Source of the DNA: Nitratidesulfovibrio sp. SRB-5
GTDB lineage: Bacteria > Desulfobacterota > Desulfovibrionia > Desulfovibrionales > Desulfovibrionaceae
Reading direction: 5' to 3'
Assembly (NCBI RefSeq): GCF_019931275.1
Contig: NZ_JAIOTY010000002.1
Location: forward strand, 62,001-126,000
DNA length: 64,000 bases
Shown: piece by piece, positions 17,745-25,204 of the stretch
Layout: the number at the start of each line of letters is the position of its first letter
Numbering within the stretch: position 1 is the stretch's first letter
Position numbers and translations under genes: made by a program
Notes under the pieces: generated by a model
The model's database searches: none
Told to the model about the DNA's origin: nothing
Seen by the model: the letters and a program-made list of their open reading frames with translations, nothing else

Positions 17745-18149
17745 TCACCCCCTGCCGCACAGCCACCGCCAAGCCAGGCGCGGCCCCAGCGCCAGCGACA
17801 CCGGCACCAGCACCCAGACCCGCCCTGCCGTCACATCATAGTCCGCCAGCAGCCGTTGCCACGGGTGCCCGGCCACGTAATGCCCGAACAGGAATTCGAA
17901 GGCCACGGTCAGGCCCGCCCAGAACAGGCCGGTGGCCCACATGCCCCGCGCCCCCCACGCGGGGCCCTGACGCCGTGCGTAGAGCAGGGCGGCCAGCCCC
18001 ACCGCCGCGCAAAGCAGCAGCGTGCTGACCACATGGGCGGCGGCGGTGCCCAGCCCGGGCCCCAGCCACGCCTCGCGCAGGGCGCCATTGGCGATGGCCA
18101 CGGCGCACAGCGCGCACCAGCAGGCAGTGGCAGTGCGAAGCGGAAACAT
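17745..18149 (-). CDS. Small membrane protein of unknown function
   Basis: A 134-residue protein with about four predicted membrane segments: residues 7-22, 32-58, 70-90 and 108-125. Charged residues cluster at the loops (LYARRQGPAWGARG) and the C-terminus ends RWLCGRG. The ATG at 18149 is preceded by GGAGG at five bases, which makes a real gene likely. I do not recognise the family. The FGHYVAGHPWQRLLADY segment is the most distinctive stretch and could be used as a search key. It converges with the hemerythrin-like gene and is divergent from the riboswitch-controlled gene. A longer frame running upstream to 19055 is not credible. Confidence 0.65.
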   Translation of the reverse strand: MFPLRTATACWCALCAVAIANGALREAWLGPGLGTAAAHVVSTLLLCAAVGLAALLYARRQGPAWGARGMWATGLFWAGLTVAFEFLFGHYVAGHPWQRLLADYDVTAGRVWVLVPVSLALGPRLAWRWLCGRG

Positions 18150-18582
18150 GGGGCCTCCATGGCGCGAGCGATGTTGGCTTGCTGCATGCCGGGAAGTATC
18201 CGGCCAGCCCGTCAGGTGTGCATGCCCCAGCGCGCGGCAGCAGGCAAGGGCGCACGAAAGTGCGCGCCAGGTCGTCGTCAATACGCATTGCCCCTGCATC
18301 CCTGCCCCTGCGCCCGGACGCCAGTGAAACCGCACTTCCGTCAGTATGCTTGCCAGCACGCCCGCAACCTCGTCCACACCGATGGCTGCGGCTGTCATGC
18401 CGCACCAAGGAGTATGGCAGTGCCGATACAGGCCACTAGGTAAATCCCGTATTTTACAGGTAGGGTGGCGAATGGGGATAGCGGGGCATTGTGAATGTGC
18501 CGGAATGATTCTGTAAAATCGTGGCAGACAACTTTGTGTGCTCGGCGTGGCACATTGACACATTCCCTGGGGTGCGTCACTC
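18150..18582. other. Intergenic region upstream of the riboswitch
   Basis: 433 bases without a gene. The right part (18430-18560) is more AT-rich than its neighbours and must hold the promoter of the riboswitch transcript. No clear -35/-10 pair was fixed by eye. Confidence 0.5.
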
Positions 18583-18668
18583 ATAGACACAAGCGAAAGC
18601 CAAACCCGCTGCGAGGCGGGGACGGAAAGCCACGGATCTCGCGTAGAGACAGCCGGGTTGCCTGCACC
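18583..18668 (+). ncRNA. GEMM-type cyclic dinucleotide riboswitch
   Basis: The sequence follows the GEMM-I consensus. GCCAAACC leads into a hairpin CCCGCT-GCGA-GGCGGG with a GNRA tetraloop (18604-18620). GACGGAAAGCC (the usual form is GACGCAAAGCC) comes next, then a second hairpin with the stem TCTC/GAGA, and finally CAGCCGGGTTGCC. These conserved segments and their order are diagnostic. Such RNAs bind c-di-GMP; a subclass in Desulfobacterota-type bacteria prefers cyclic AMP-GMP, set by a base in the first strand that I cannot align with certainty here. It lies about 50 bases before a small receiver-like gene. Confidence 0.85.
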
Positions 18669-18701
18669 GGAAAGCAGTGCGTCAGCGCGGGTCGTGGCGT
18701 C

Positions 18702-18717
18702 ATCCCTTGGGGGGGAT
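18702..18717 (+). promoter_or_regulatory. Shine-Dalgarno-sequestering hairpin
   Basis: ATCCC (18702-18706) can pair with GGGAT (18713-18717), placing the G-run ribosome binding site of the next gene in stem and loop immediately before its ATG. This suggests that the riboswitch controls translation initiation. The alternative pairing has not been worked out. Confidence 0.5.
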
Positions 18718-19107
18718 ATGCTGACGTGTGTTTTTGTTCTTGTGGTGGACTGCAATCCCATGTCCGCATTCATGTGCGAGTGGGAACTGCGCAAGCGCGG
18801 TGCGGAAGCCTTCGTGGTGCGCAGGGTGGAAGACGCCCTGCCCGCGCTGGATACGCACCGTTTCGATTTTGCGCTGATCGATGCGGGCACCATGGAGAAC
18901 GATGCTGACCGCGCCACCCTGCACGAAAGCCTTGTCAGAAACGGTGTGCCTTCATTGTTGATGACACGCCGCAGCCAGGCCTGCGCCGACCACCATGTCT
19001 CTGCCTGTGCCCTGCAGGACAGCCTGCGCCTTCCGGCGGACGCGATAAGCTGCATTGCTTACTGTGTGCTGAGCATGGGCAAGCAGGTTACCGCCCGCTT
19101 CAGCTGA
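18718..19107 (+). CDS. Degenerate response-regulator receiver-like protein
   Basis: A 129-residue protein with a receiver-like layout: VFVLVVDCNPMSAFMCEWEL at the start, KRGAEAFVVRRVEDALPALD in the second unit and FDFALIDAGTM carrying the equivalent of the phospho-acceptor Asp (Asp55). The usual acidic pair is reduced to DC (11-12). Neither a clear Thr/Ser switch nor the conserved Lys could be found, so phosphorylation is doubtful. There is no output domain. The ATG at 18718 lies directly behind a G-run. A GEMM riboswitch precedes it, so its expression should follow cyclic dinucleotide level. The next gene is a hybrid histidine kinase 576 bases downstream, but the two need not act together. 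Confidence 0.65.
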   Translation: MLTCVFVLVVDCNPMSAFMCEWELRKRGAEAFVVRRVEDALPALDTHRFDFALIDAGTMENDADRATLHESLVRNGVPSLLMTRRSQACADHHVSACALQDSLRLPADAISCIAYCVLSMGKQVTARFS

Positions 19108-19682
19108 GCCGCCCCGGTGCGCACCCGCAGTGCGTATTTTCTCTCCCCCGCCCCCGCCGTCTCGTCGTTCCGCCTACCCGCGTGTTGCGGCGCGCTCCCG
19201 GCGCGCCTTGCCGCAGCCCGTTGAACCCCGCCCTGTTCGCCCTGTTCGCCCTGTCTCGCCCTGTTCGGCCTGTCTCGCCCTGTCTCGATGTGTCCCGCCA
19301 TGTCTCGGTGTGTCCCGTCATATCTTGTCATGTCCCGGCGTGATCCGCGCCGTTGCGTGCGCCCCCTGCCGTTCTGACCGGCCCTTCCCCGTCCTTGCCG
19401 GTCAGGCTCCTTGCCCTGTCGGTGTGTTGCAGCTTTTCCGGGCGTGTTGCCGTGCGGGCCGCTCCGGGGTATTGCGCAGGCATGACAGTGCCGTAGACAC
19501 TGCTGCCGACGGCGCCGCGCACTGCCGCCGTGCGCTGCCGCGTCGTGTCCGCCTGCCCGGCGGAATCCGGCGGAACCCGGCGGCATGCAACCATCCGGCC
19601 ACGCCCGCAACGGGCCGCCGGGGCACGAACATCTGTCGGACCGCGATGCGCGCCAGCAGCGCACCCGTCCACGGGGGAACGC
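19108..19682. other. Intergenic region with degenerate tandem repeats
   Basis: 575 bases without a credible gene. The left third contains the CCCTGTCTCG-type tandem repeat at 19229-19338. The rest is GC-rich with no recognised motif. The promoter of the hybrid kinase must lie here. Confidence 0.5.
19229..19338 (+). repeat. Degenerate 10-base tandem repeat
   Basis: About ten imperfect units of CCCTGT(T/C)TCG-like sequence run from CCCTGTTCG at the left to CATGTCCCGG at the right, decaying rightwards. Looks like replication slippage in a spacer. Confidence 0.7.
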
Positions 19683-21908
19683 GTGAGACCCAGCAAGACA
19701 GTTCTGGTTCTGGCCGGGCCGCTGCTTACGGCGTTGATGGCCGTGACGCTGTTTTTCCTGTCGCACCACGGCGTGCAGGTGCACAACCCGGTGCTGCTGT
19801 TCGTGGTGGCCATCGTGCTGGCGGCGTACCTGGGCGGGCATGCATCGGGCCTTGCCAGCGTGGGGCTGTCGCTGGTGTACGTGCTGCTGACCTGGTCCAC
19901 CGGGTTCGCCACGTTCGTCTATTCAGAGGCCAGCGTCAGCCGACTGGTGGTTTTTCTGCTGACCATGCCGGTGGTCTCGTTGCTGGTGTCGTGTCTGCAA
20001 ACCCGCAACGAGCGCGTGCTGGAACGGCTGCACGCCAAAAGCGAATGCCTGCGCGAGAGCGAGGCGCGCCTGCGCCGCGCCGAACTGGTGGCGGGCATCG
20101 GCAACTGGGAGGCGGACCTGCGCACCGGAGCACTGGTCACCTCTGAAGGCGCCCGGCGCATCTACGGCATACCGGACCACTGCGACAGCTTCGAGGTCGT
20201 GAAGGCCATCCCCCTGCCGGAATACCGCCCCGCGCTGGACGCGGCCATGCACGAACTGGTCACCCGTGGCGTGGAATACGTCATCGAGTTCAGGATCCGC
20301 CGCCCTTCGGACGGGGGTGTGGCCGACATCCAGTCGCGCGCCAAGTACGACGCCGAGCGGCACCGCGTGTACGGCACCATCAAGGACATCACCGAACGCA
20401 AGCGCGCGGAGCGCGAACTGATCGAGGCCAACCGCCAGGCCAAGAGCGCCAGCGAGACCAAAAGCCTGTTCCTGGCCAACATGAGCCACGAGATACGCAC
20501 CCCGCTCAACGGCATTCTGGGCGCGCTGCAACTGCTGAAGGCAGACCTGGCCGACCCGGAGCAAGCCGGGTACGCGAACCTGGCCATCCGCTCGTCGCAG
20601 CGGCTGGCGCACCTGCTGACGGACCTGCTGGACCTGTCCCGCGTGGAGGCGGGTCGCATGCCCGTGGCCAGCGAGCCCTTCGACCTGGCGCGACTGGGCG
20701 AGGCCGTGCGCGAACTGTTCCAGTTCGAACTGGGCGCGCGCGGCCTTGCGCTGGACGTGCAGCTTGCCCCCGGCCTGCCGCAAACCGTGCTGGGCGACGA
20801 GGGCAAGACCCGTCAGATACTGTTCAACCTTGTGGGCAATGCGCTGAAGTTCACCGAACGGGGCGGGGTGCGGCTGAGCCTGTCGCCGTTGCGAGGCCTG
20901 CCCGGCCTGCCCGATCTGCCCGATCTGGCAGACCGGCCCGATCTGGCAGACCGGCCCGATCTAGCAGACCAGCCTGATCGCCCCGAACAGTTGGACCGGT
21001 CGCACCATCAACCGTTTCGGTCTGGCAAGGCTGGCGGTGCGGAGGCCAGCGTGGCCGCCGCAGGCGGAAATGGCGCAGGCAGCAACGGGGCGGAAGGAAA
21101 CAGCGCAGGCGGGAACGGCACGGGCAGGTCGGGGATACCGGGCGGACCTGACGGGTCCGAGAGGTTTGGCGGGGCGGACAGGCCGGGCGCTTTGGACGAA
21201 AACGAGGCCACGGCAGGAGACGTGGCGGGCGTGCTGTTCATGGTGGAGGACACCGGCAAGGGCATACCCGACGCCCTGCTGCGCACCATCTTCGATCCGT
21301 TCACCCAGGCCGACAACTCGTATGTGCGGCGGCATCAGGGCGCGGGGCTGGGGCTGTCCATCGTGCGGCGGCTGGTGGCGCTGCTGGGCGGCACCATCTG
21401 CGTGGACAGCGAGGAAGGGCGCGGCACCGTGTTCTGCGTGGCCCTGCCCTTCCGTACGGCGGAGCGGTGCGAACTGCCGCCGGAAGTGGCGGATTGCCCG
21501 CCCCCGCCGCAGGACGGCGCGCCGGTGCGCGTGCTGCTGGCGGAAGACGACGCCACCACCCGCCTGGTGGGGCAGCGGCTGCTGCAAAAGGCCGGATACA
21601 GCGTGACCTTGGCCGTGGACGGCGACGACGCACTGGCCCGGCTGGCCGCCGAAGAGGTGGACGTGGTGCTGATGGACATCCACATGCCCAATACCGACGG
21701 CATTACCGCTGCCACCACCATCCGCACGTCACCCCGCTTTGCGGACAAGTGCAACGTGCCCATTCTGGCCGTGACCGCAGCCGCAATGGCGGGCGACCGC
21801 GAGCGCTTTCTGGCCGCTGGCCTTGATGGCTACGTGGCCAAGCCCTTCGACATGGCCGACCTTGTCGAGGAGATCGAATGTGCGCGGAGGAAAAGGCAGG
21901 TGTGTTGA
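19683..21908 (+). CDS. Hybrid sensor histidine kinase/receiver with an insert in the ATPase domain
   Basis: A 741-residue inner-membrane kinase. Membrane segments occupy about 7-110 (four to five helices, a small MASE-like or DUF4118-like sensor). PAS/PAC lies at about 135-245, ending [14 protein letters not shown]. The HisKA domain follows with [14 protein letters not shown] and phospho-His269. The HATPase has the N box NLVGNALKF, then an unusual low-complexity insert at about 402-515, then VEDTGKGIP and [11 protein letters not shown]-terminal receiver (about 615-741) has Asp665 in VVLMDIHMP and Lys in YVAKPF. The GTG at 19683 has GGGGGA upstream; the longer frame to 19530 is compositionally poor. 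There is no partner response regulator next door, so output may go through a phosphotransfer protein or an unlinked regulator. Confidence 0.85.
20912..20977 (+). repeat. 18-base tandem repeat inside the kinase insert
   Basis: Units of CGATCTGGCAGACCGGCC repeat about three times with decay, encoding PDLADR repeats. The unit is a multiple of three, so copy number can change without a frameshift. It sits in the HATPase insert of the hybrid kinase. Confidence 0.8.
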
Positions 21909-22172
21909 GGGGGAGCAGAGGATCGGTGGGCGACTTTAGGACTGCGTGGCTTAGGTAAAACGAATACCTGCCTCCTTAGTCGTGTGAGATTAAAAAGGGT
22001 TCATCTGAGTGTATGCATATTGGACTGGTTTTTTCGATGTGTTAGTGTGTATTGAAAGTGTGGGTGTGCCCGTTGGGCTGCTGTCCGCATGGGCGAAAAC
22101 TTTTCGGTTATCTTGATGTGTTTTTGTGAGGCGGGTCGGTAGATATTGTAACGCGCAGTAGGTGGCGTGTAT
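21909..22172. other. Left flank of the AT-rich Hachiman island
   Basis: 264 bases between the kinase stop and hamA. Composition shifts from GC-rich to AT-rich at about 21940-21990. No integrase, tRNA or clear direct repeat marks the junction. The hamA promoter should be here; no unambiguous hexamers were found. Confidence 0.5.
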
Positions 22173-23042
22173 ATGCGAACGATGGTCAGAAAGGCTACTT
22201 CTCTTATAATAAAGCACGAAATATCATTTTCTCAGAATGGTCCACACGCAAAAGACGGCTTCACTCTTTCTTATAATGAGAAGGGTTATAGGGACGTTGA
22301 TTTGGTTAGATTGATAGCCCACTCTCTGCCTCTGTTTGCCTTGACAGAACGCGAAATACAAGAGTGTGTGGAAAATGGTGAGTTGAGTGCCATACAGGAA
22401 ATGGCATTGTCGAGGATTTCGCAAGCAAAAAGAGATAAAAAAGGAGACTATGGAGAGGCTTTGCTTTTTATTCTGCTCGCAGCATTTTATGGTAACGAGC
22501 GGATCGTAACAAAGTTGAAACTTCGATCAAGCAGCACGGAGCAGATAAAGGGATTTGATTGTGCTAATTTTACATATGAAAATGGCGAATTGACTGTATG
22601 GTTAGGTGAGGTGAAGTTTTATCAGGATTTTTCTTCTGCGGTAGATGATGTCATTGAGGAACTAGTTAAACACACAACGGCGGAGTATATAAAGGGTGAA
22701 TTTAGAGTCCTCCTTCCAAACTGTGAAATAAATAGAAATTCACCGTTGAGAGACAGGATTTTGAGTGTTCTTGATGGTAGTACGTCTCTTGATAAGGTAA
22801 AGATTAAAATTCCTGTGCTTTTAACATGTAACTCTACACAATTGAGCAGATTTAATGATGCGTCTTCTGAGAATTTTTTGAATTTTGTCGATAGATATTT
22901 TTCGAAAAAATTTGAAATAATAGAGCGAAAAATGCCAAAGAGTCTTGAGCGGTTCGATGTTGTATTTATTGTGTTGCCACTGCATGATGTTAAGCTGGTA
23001 AAAAAGAAATTGGATGATTATGAAAAAGTATTGGAGTTGTGA
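22173..23042 (+). CDS. hamA: Hachiman defense protein HamA (DUF1837-type nuclease)
   Basis: A 289-residue protein with the DUF1837/HamA core: KKGDYGEALLFILL (GDYGE at 91-95), a TKLKLRSSSTEQIKGFDCANF stretch with Asp129, and WLGEVKFYQDF with Glu146 and Lys148. The D...ExK arrangement is that of a PD-(D/E)xK nuclease. In Hachiman, HamA is the effector nuclease held in check by the helicase HamB until phage-related DNA is sensed. The ATG at 22173 has AGGTGG about seven bases upstream; GTG 22167 and ATG 22182 are alternatives. Its stop codon overlaps the hamB start. The gene is strongly AT-rich, with AAA, ATA and TTT codons, unlike its neighbours, indicating horizontal transfer. Confidence 0.85.
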   Translation: MRTMVRKATSLIIKHEISFSQNGPHAKDGFTLSYNEKGYRDVDLVRLIAHSLPLFALTEREIQECVENGELSAIQEMALSRISQAKRDKKGDYGEALLFILLAAFYGNERIVTKLKLRSSSTEQIKGFDCANFTYENGELTVWLGEVKFYQDFSSAVDDVIEELVKHTTAEYIKGEFRVLLPNCEINRNSPLRDRILSVLDGSTSLDKVKIKIPVLLTCNSTQLSRFNDASSENFLNFVDRYFSKKFEIIERKMPKSLERFDVVFIVLPLHDVKLVKKKLDDYEKVLEL

Positions 23043-25204
23043 TGGTGTTGTCACTTGAATATATTGAAAAAGCATTGATATGTAAAAGTGATTTAGAAGA
23101 AAAATTTCTTCTTGATGCTTTGCAATGTGTGTATCATGAGATACAGAGTAAGGGAAATTCTTCTGTGGTTACGTCAATAATCTGTCGTATATCTGCATTG
23201 AAGTATAAAAGTGAACTTGTCGTAAATTTGTTGAGAGAGTGCATTGTTGCTTCAAGGATTTTTATATACAGTGATATGCTTGGTGGTGTTGACGGTGCGT
23301 GGGGTAGTATTTTTTCAGATGTTGCGCAAGATTGTTATTCGCGTCCGAGCGGTATTGTGTTAACATTGTACCAGAAGAAGATATTGTCAGAATATAAAAA
23401 ACACAAAAGAATAGTTGTTAGTGCTCCAACCTCGTTTGGAAAAAGCACAATAGTCCCTGAATTGATTGACGAGAGTGATAAAAATGTTTGTATAGTTGTT
23501 CCAACGTTGTCCTTACTTTCAGAGTATGTTTCTAGATTTATTCAGGATTCACGATTTCGTAGATATAATATTGTTTACACATCATCTCAGGGGTTGGGTC
23601 GGCGCAACATTTTTATTGTAACGCCAGAACGTATGGATATTATTTTGGATCAACATCCAGATTTGGGAGTTGATTTTTTTGTAATGGATGAGGTGTATAA
23701 AATATCTAACAGTGATGATCGTTCTTTGATATTTGCAAATTGCCTTTATCGTCTGGCTAATAGGGTCTCTAGATTTTATCTCATTGGGCCATACTATGAC
23801 GAGTTCAGCGTCAACTTTTTAAAGCGATTTAACGCGCACTTTTTGCGATTTGATGTTGAGGTCGTTGCTAAAAACAAATTAGATATTTCTGATGTTTCCC
23901 GTGGGAATATTTATGATGTAAAAGGAGTGAAGGTTAAAAAAACTGCGGACAAATATAAAAATCTTAGCAGACTAGTTGCGGCGTTAGAAGGTCAAACACT
24001 GGTGTATGTTGCTAAGACGCATACTGCAGAAGTGGCAGCAAAGCATATTTCATCTAACCTTGTCGAGAGCGCTACTTGTGAAGGGCTGATTGATTTTGTT
24101 TCGTCGACGATAGGTCGAGAGTGGTCGCTTGGTGAGTATTTAAAAAGAAAAGTAGCTTTTCATCATGCATTGATGCCTAAGTATGTTCAGCGCGAGATAG
24201 TTTATAATTTCAATGTTGGAGCGATTGACACTTTGGTTTGTACTTCAACACTTATTGAAGGGGTTAATACCTCCGCTCAAAATGTTGTAGTTTTTGATAA
24301 TATGAAAGGTATTGCACCGTTAACGGGTTTTGACGTTAAAAATATTGAAGGTAGATCCGGAAGGCTCGGGAGACATTTCGTTGGCGAAAATTACTTCCTA
24401 GTTGAAACACCATCCAAAGCAAATGTTGGAAATGTAGATTTTGTTTTTCTTGATTCAAACGAGCTCGATGATGAAGTGAATTTGCTTGTCAGTGACGGCG
24501 ATTTGACAGATGTAATGAAGAAGCGACGAGAGCATATTTTGCATGAGTGTCGTGAAAATGGTGTGAGCTTATCTCTATTGCGAAGCAATAAGTACATAAA
24601 GGTTGATAAGCAGTTGGCGCTCGTTAGGTACTTTCGGGACAACCCGGATGTTATGCGCGAAATGCATTTTAGTGGTACGCTTCCAGTTAAAGAGACGTTG
24701 AAGATTTGGTTGAGGCTTGCGTATGAGTATTTGATGAGCGATTCTCAAAAGCATGAAAAAGATTTGCCTCAAAATATTGTTATAAACAAGGCTATCTATT
24801 ATGTTTATAAAAATCCAACGATATATGAGTTTGTAAATGGGTGGAGTGAGGGAAGTTTTGATGCAAGGGTCCGTAAGACATTTAAATTGGTGACACGTAT
24901 ATTTGAATTCGCTTTGCCAAAGTCTTTATTCGCACTGGAAAATATATACAATTACATGAATGGTTCGCAAATAGACACTTCGCATGTTGTCTCATTGCTT
25001 GAGCATGGGCTGGGAAAAAAACATGAGGTGCTTTTGAAAGAGGCAGGAATTCCGCCAAATATAATTAAAAAAATTTCAAAATTTTTCGATGAGACATATT
25101 CAATACGAGACATACAGGCGGCTATAGACAGTGCAGACCTTAGCCGTTTGACGGAGTATGAAAAAAAAATACTACAAAGAACGTTGCTTGGGGAAAACCG
25201 TTAA
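23042..25204 (+). CDS. hamB: Hachiman defense protein HamB (superfamily 2 helicase)
   Basis: A 720-residue DExH-type helicase. LTLYQKKILSEY at about 107-118 resembles a Q-motif. Motif I is APTSFGKST (128-136), TPERM is at 194-198 and motif II is MDEVYK (215-220). The second RecA domain has CTSTLIEGVN at about 399-408 and motif VI as IEGRSGRLGR at about 434-443, typical of Ski2-like helicases. The C-terminal 250 residues are helical and unassigned. In Hachiman, HamB senses DNA and restrains or releases HamA. Start: the ATG at 23042 overlaps the hamA TGA by one base (TGATG) and has TTGGAG upstream; GTG at 23039 is possible. AT-rich like hamA. It converges with the radical SAM gene. Confidence 0.85.
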   Translation: MVLSLEYIEKALICKSDLEEKFLLDALQCVYHEIQSKGNSSVVTSIICRISALKYKSELVVNLLRECIVASRIFIYSDMLGGVDGAWGSIFSDVAQDCYSRPSGIVLTLYQKKILSEYKKHKRIVVSAPTSFGKSTIVPELIDESDKNVCIVVPTLSLLSEYVSRFIQDSRFRRYNIVYTSSQGLGRRNIFIVTPERMDIILDQHPDLGVDFFVMDEVYKISNSDDRSLIFANCLYRLANRVSRFYLIGPYYDEFSVNFLKRFNAHFLRFDVEVVAKNKLDISDVSRGNIYDVKGVKVKKTADKYKNLSRLVAALEGQTLVYVAKTHTAEVAAKHISSNLVESATCEGLIDFVSSTIGREWSLGEYLKRKVAFHHALMPKYVQREIVYNFNVGAIDTLVCTSTLIEGVNTSAQNVVVFDNMKGIAPLTGFDVKNIEGRSGRLGRHFVGENYFLVETPSKANVGNVDFVFLDSNELDDEVNLLVSDGDLTDVMKKRREHILHECRENGVSLSLLRSNKYIKVDKQLALVRYFRDNPDVMREMHFSGTLPVKETLKIWLRLAYEYLMSDSQKHEKDLPQNIVINKAIYYVYKNPTIYEFVNGWSEGSFDARVRKTFKLVTRIFEFALPKSLFALENIYNYMNGSQIDTSHVVSLLEHGLGKKHEVLLKEAGIPPNIIKKISKFFDETYSIRDIQAAIDSADLSRLTEYEKKILQRTLLGENR

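Follow-up and report, generated by a model that had tools for sequence, protein, structure and literature searches.

The locus lies in Nitratidesulfovibrio sp. SRB-5, within a stretch of 64,000 nucleotides that was analysed whole and is called the window here (bases 62001–126000 of contig C2; the genome comprises 4.12 Mb on 11 contigs). It consists of a c-di-GMP-I riboswitch before a genus-specific pseudo-receiver gene; it is genuine and conserved, and its type is an ordinary one. A sequence-only reading had proposed a cyclic-dinucleotide riboswitch ahead of a degenerate receiver, an arrangement that the analysis supports. The features, in window coordinates, are as follows.

18590–18666, plus strand: c-di-GMP-I (GEMM-I) aptamer, from RF03167 and RF01051 covariance-model matches
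18599, 18600, 18625, 18626 and 18661, plus strand: aptamer key bases G20, C21, G46, A47 and C92, respectively, in Vc2 numbering (RF03167 alignment)
18611–18614, plus strand: GNRA (GCGA) tetraloop of the aptamer (RF03167 alignment)
18629–18635, plus strand: 5′ strand of P3, GCCACGG, invariant in 7/7 genomes; pairs within the aptamer or with 18692–18698
18692–18698, plus strand: anti-aptamer element UCGUGGC (CCGUGGC in six relatives), also in the 5′ arm of the sequestor hairpin
18693–18726, plus strand: sequestor hairpin over the Shine-Dalgarno and start codon, from platform folds of seven genomes and a pair table
18702–18706 with 18713–18717, plus strand: inner stem of the sequestor, formable in 7/7 genomes, 1 of 16 columns variable
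18709–18715, plus strand: G-run read from the sequence as the Shine-Dalgarno, invariant in 7/7
18718–18720, plus strand: AUG start codon, covered by the longer stem 18693–18726
18730–18741, plus strand: U-rich stretch GUUUUUGUUCUU 3′ of the hairpin, in codons 5–8; possible terminator tail
18718–19107, plus strand: 129-residue receiver-like protein (stop included in the coordinates), from the open reading frame, homologues, dN/dS and receiver fold

The aptamer, its gene and their neighbours

The GEMM aptamer that had been read from the sequence was checked against the Rfam GEMM models and lies above the cut-off of two of them. RF03167 (c-di-GMP-I-GGC) is the best-scoring model, with 64.6 bits against a cut-off of 59 (E = 5.8e-13 in the search of the 64-kb window, from which one lower-scoring clan match was left out, and 2e-15 in a short stretch), and RF01051 gives 58.8 bits against a gathering cut-off of 35, the sole match found in the genome. 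P1 appears weak, with three pairs in the RF03167 model, and the 5′ flank varies in 9 of 10 columns among the seven copies. Upstream of the aptamer, TTGACACAT at 18555–18563, with a −35-like TTGACA, is invariant in the seven-genome alignment; a promoter scan of 18400–19200 gave no sigma-70 match on the plus strand, so that this element is not matched as part of a normally spaced promoter.

The proposed 129-residue frame at 18718–19107 is a real gene. Together with its aptamer it is present in seven of the eight genus genomes, its product is 79–91% identical in the six relatives, and dN/dS values of 0.135–0.251 over 21 pairs indicate purifying selection. Gene loss in the eighth genome (G003) was rejected as an explanation: contig C653 of that genome stops at about window position 18040, just before the locus, so the absence is no evidence of loss. 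A start at TTG 18658, which would give 149 codons, is not favoured, because the open frames of G002 and G004 span just 134 codons from stop to stop and the extension is thus not conserved. Outside the genus, seven of the 51 relatives searched gave weak receiver matches (the best with E = 2.8e-5, at 32% identity over residues 7–117), and the gene occurs at four loci among named records, in Nitratidesulfovibrio liaohensis, Desulfovibrio sp. A2 and two Desulfovibrio MAGs; taken together, these searches point to a gene restricted to the genus at this search sensitivity.

About 575 bases separate the receiver gene from that of a hybrid histidine kinase (~19683–21908). A close orthologue of the kinase (84–90% identity) adjoins the gene in five relatives, and thus, with the window, in six of seven genomes. 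An operon of the two was rejected, as G004 lacks the kinase orthologue (best match 50%); about 1 kb downstream of its receiver gene, in the same orientation, is a rhodanese-rubrerythrin gene. This comparison of neighbours draws on the receiver, the kinase and 22167–25204. The kinase is a possible candidate for a cognate partner. Between the two genes, at 19229–19317, is a tandem array with units of ~9–20 bases (CGCCCTGTT-like). Just 3′ of the kinase, at 22167–25204 on the plus strand, is a two-gene Hachiman anti-phage system (PADLOC matches: HamA, E = 7.2e-93; HamB, E = 1.3e-213), with no HamA/HamB match in the compared stretches of six relatives, several of which are short.

Contact bases and predicted ligand

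The first-strand specificity base, which the sequence-only reading could not align with certainty, is placed by the covariance-model alignment at 18599 and is a G, as it is in 7/7 genus copies. Positions follow that alignment and the Vc2 (3IRW) numbering used in the available text of PMC3764141 and PMC4744006, where the bases that contact c-di-GMP are G20, A47 and C92. All three are present in the window aptamer, and c-di-GMP is the ligand they predict. The genome contains 30 GGDEF matches (a count of domain matches), which makes it very likely that c-di-GMP is produced in this organism.

A cyclic AMP-GMP sensor, or one of broad specificity, is very unlikely here. The variant Rfam label would suit such a sensor, as would the pocket-side pair C21–G46 in place of G21–C46 and the occurrence of A20 in 2 of 89 family aptamers. 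In Geobacter the cyclic AMP-GMP (GEMM-Ib) aptamers have A20, and one of them became c-di-GMP-selective when A20 was changed to G, according to the available part of PMC6456294; the window and its genus copies all have G20 instead, and A47 and C92 are both there.

We sampled 199 genomes of the family, of which 56 contain RF03167 matches at E ≤ 0.001 after filters that lose some weak matches, and read all 89 matches by position, the seven genus copies of this locus included. A47 and C92 occur in 89/89, G20 in 87/89 and A20 in 2/89, and the 21–46 pair is C–G in 84 and G–C in 5. The window aptamer, with A47 and C21–G46, differs from the very model that scores it best, the consensus of which has G47 and G21–C46. 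G at position 47 is our own reading of that consensus, and what 'GGC' stands for is presumed; G21–C46 is taken here as the usual pair of c-di-GMP-I aptamers. As G47 was found in none of the 89 matches (E ≤ 0.001, 199 family genomes), the '-GGC' label of these aptamers reflects overall likeness: their contact bases are canonical, most with a flipped neighbouring pair. Since the '-GGC' matches carry A47 in the sampled family genomes, the label is no sign of a changed ligand. The available parts of PMC12452182 and PMC11124144 mention the '-GGC' name and no more. The flip itself may be neutral, because positions 21 and 46 are outside the highly conserved positions listed in the available text of PMC3764141.

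Two family aptamers, L064 (genome G131) and L083 (G142), combine A20 with C21–G46; by these bases they would be sensors of cyclic AMP-GMP in organisms other than Geobacter. Downstream of them, the longest open reading frames cluster with the HD_5 and ShlB groups, and the G131 frame downstream of L064 has no Pfam match at E ≤ 0.001. A second GEMM aptamer is found in three genus relatives (L061 in G004, L065 in G001 and L117 in G005), compared with one in the window genome. These precede a dCache chemotaxis receptor gene, which was scanned for L065 and assigned by blastp cluster for the other two.

Alternative folds of the leader

The aptamer lies 51 bases from the start codon (52 in G002). The sequence had suggested that a hairpin less than 50 bases past the aptamer hides the ribosome-binding site, and it is indeed found, as the inner stem at 18702–18717 includes the G-run at 18709–18715. 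A longer hairpin, GCCCGUGGCA...AUCCC-UUGGGG-GGGAU-AUGCUGACGGGC, covers the Shine-Dalgarno and the AUG and is formable in most relatives; the window keeps its inner sequestor pairs and is without two outer pairs present in six relatives. The RNAalifold consensus does not form the long hairpin, and instead pairs the P3 5′ strand GCCACGG with CCGUGGC (alignment columns 107–113), a helix with seven pairs in 7/7 genomes. The anti-aptamer element is variable in 1 of 7 columns, compared with 14 of 26 in the flanking linker and 4 of 4 in the spacer. The two folds are mutually exclusive, and their free energies, which exclude ligand binding energy and tertiary contacts, are at most 2.6 kcal/mol apart in 7/7 genomes. 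Opening the stretch from the Shine-Dalgarno to the AUG is 4.4–5.8 kcal/mol dearer in the aptamer state in 7/7, a difference that is in part a consequence of how the alternative state is defined.

Given these exclusive folds and the start stretch that is harder to open in the aptamer state, we infer that the leader is probably a c-di-GMP OFF switch for the receiver-like protein, acting mainly on translation. When c-di-GMP is bound, the aptamer would hold the P3 helix and leave CCGUGGC free to close the hairpin over both the Shine-Dalgarno and the start codon, so that expression would fall at high c-di-GMP; the closed hairpin may double as a weak terminator. Without c-di-GMP, GCCACGG would pair with CCGUGGC and block the long hairpin, and with just short stems left, ribosomes could start.

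The opposite direction, an ON switch in which the ligand frees the start region by some other rearrangement, is possible, if rather unlikely. Such a rearrangement might, for example, keep C92 and the P1 strand out of a GCCUGC/GCAG-GC helix, and C92 and C93 can indeed join a downstream helix (columns 75–80 with 89–95) that would exclude the ligand. When P3 alone is constrained, the AUG has a higher mean unpaired fraction in the P3 state than in the alternative one in six of the seven genomes (the window is the exception), and in none of the seven does the alternative state make the Shine-Dalgarno more accessible. Vc1 is also reported, in the available text of PMC4744006, to raise expression on c-di-GMP. 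Against an ON switch stands the higher opening energy of the start region in the aptamer state, seen in every genome.

It is unlikely that an intact aptamer controls the gene chiefly by terminating transcription at the hairpin and U-rich stretch, rather than by masking the ribosome-binding site. In favour of termination, GUUUUUGUUCUU comes directly after the hairpin, and the codons GTT-TTT-GTT-CTT would arise by chance with a probability of ~0.0012 by window codon use, although the reference set for this figure is mechanical and includes at least one wrong-strand open reading frame, and T-ending codons near a start can have other causes. The terminator scan did not flag the hairpin and U-rich stretch, and the run is broken in two of the seven genomes: the codons are GTT-TTT-GTT-CTT in three and ATT-TTT-GTT-CTT in two, with C or G weakening the run in G002 and G004.

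Several results count against the OFF switch, among them the unpaired fractions given above and the two outer sequestor pairs missing from the window. Taken whole, the leader at 18586–18740 folds no better than shuffled versions of itself (z = −0.81), of which 39 in 200 do as well, and covariation for the switch was absent, as the one predicted pair in 50 that changed on both sides is located in P2. A P3 complement as strong as that observed arises in 10–76 per 1000 shuffled linkers, depending on the genome, with 76 for the window. A common anti-P3 design across the family riboswitches was rejected: 5 of 89 have such a complement at p ≤ 0.05 (100 shuffles each), two of these five are copies of this locus, and the window itself has p = 0.30.

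The receiver-like protein and comparison with known systems

The Pfam Response_reg model (PF00072) matches the protein with E = 0.0077 and 16.8 bits, below the gathering cut-off of 30.2. An AlphaFold model built from a seven-row alignment has a mean pLDDT of 75.8, with β1-α1 to β4 well predicted, residues 86–103 below a pLDDT of 50, and the α4-β5 part poorly defined. Most of the best rows in Foldseek and VIA-align searches are receivers (Z = 11.1, rmsd 3.8, 102 residues). The protein has a receiver fold in which the active site is degraded. The phospho-acceptor D55, together with D11 and T83, is invariant in 7/7 genomes. The second acidic residue has been lost (C, R or S stands at residue 12), and the position of the conserved Lys, placed by eye, reads R104, an invariant Arg, which agrees with the incomplete phosphorylation set noted previously. 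Residual phosphorylation may occur, since D55, D11 and T83 are kept throughout; the phosphorylation-independent action suggested from the sequence is likewise possible. A recent definition in the available part of PMC12548384 takes any receiver without one of five key residues as a pseudoreceiver; by its lost key residues the protein fits this term, which is silent on capacity for phosphorylation.

As a single-domain receiver with no output domain, the protein could act on a histidine kinase or another receiver when c-di-GMP is low (the motile state), whether as a partner, as a phosphate sink or as a competitor. A bolder proposal is that the signal lies in the amount of protein, which c-di-GMP would set by way of the riboswitch, such that the level of a lone pseudo-receiver and not its phosphorylation titrates a histidine kinase, and that the riboswitch belongs to a family subclass (C21–G46, 84/89) with an altered pocket floor that tunes affinity or specificity. 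We regard this combination as quite unlikely; if the protein-level signal were real, second-messenger and phosphotransfer signalling would meet at one small protein. Should the OFF switch work as we propose, the locus would offer a simple, testable sulfate-reducer case of a second messenger that sets the dose of a receiver-like protein. The sensor type, a c-di-GMP-I riboswitch, is of a known kind, and the gene appears in the genus alone; what is new is that the ligand has been assigned, the variant label corrected and a concrete, testable platform with two states put forward. Searches of the open-licence literature on c-di-GMP riboswitches, pseudo-receivers, Desulfovibrio and Nitratidesulfovibrio, covered mostly at title level, gave no title on this locus.

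The aptamer shares with the c-di-GMP-I (GEMM-I) family RF01051 (clan CL00126) the bases G20, A47, C92 and C44, the GNRA loop and the P2/P3 architecture, and differs from it in C21–G46 and an apparently weak P1. Among lone receivers, the best PDB sequence match is 2msw ('Response regulator/sensor histidine kinase'); the score is weak (E = 0.025), but β1–β4 aligns with the Asp acceptor in register, while the Lys and second acidic residue of such receivers have been lost. The response regulator model NF009971 gives 16.9 bits against a cut-off of 151. In Oleidesulfovibrio alaskensis G20, a single c-di-GMP-I riboswitch is reported before norR (available text of PMC11124144). Open reading frames downstream of 10 of the 89 family aptamers were scanned: one has no match and one has sub-cut-off matches alone, and the set includes HD_5, a chemotaxis receptor, two-partner secretion (ShlB), a receiver-sigma54 regulator, HDOD with a sub-threshold EAL match, N_methyl (pilin-like), a type II/IV secretion ATPase and a subtilase, which looks like the usual GEMM regulon. 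A precedent for the window arrangement is cmrRST of Clostridioides difficile, in which, according to the available part of PMC12548384, a c-di-GMP riboswitch lies ahead of response regulators that include the atypical receiver CmrT. CmrT belongs to the OmpR family and carries a DNA-binding domain; it is part of a three-component system, and Glu replaces its acceptor Asp (same source), whereas the window protein is a lone receiver that has kept its acceptor Asp.
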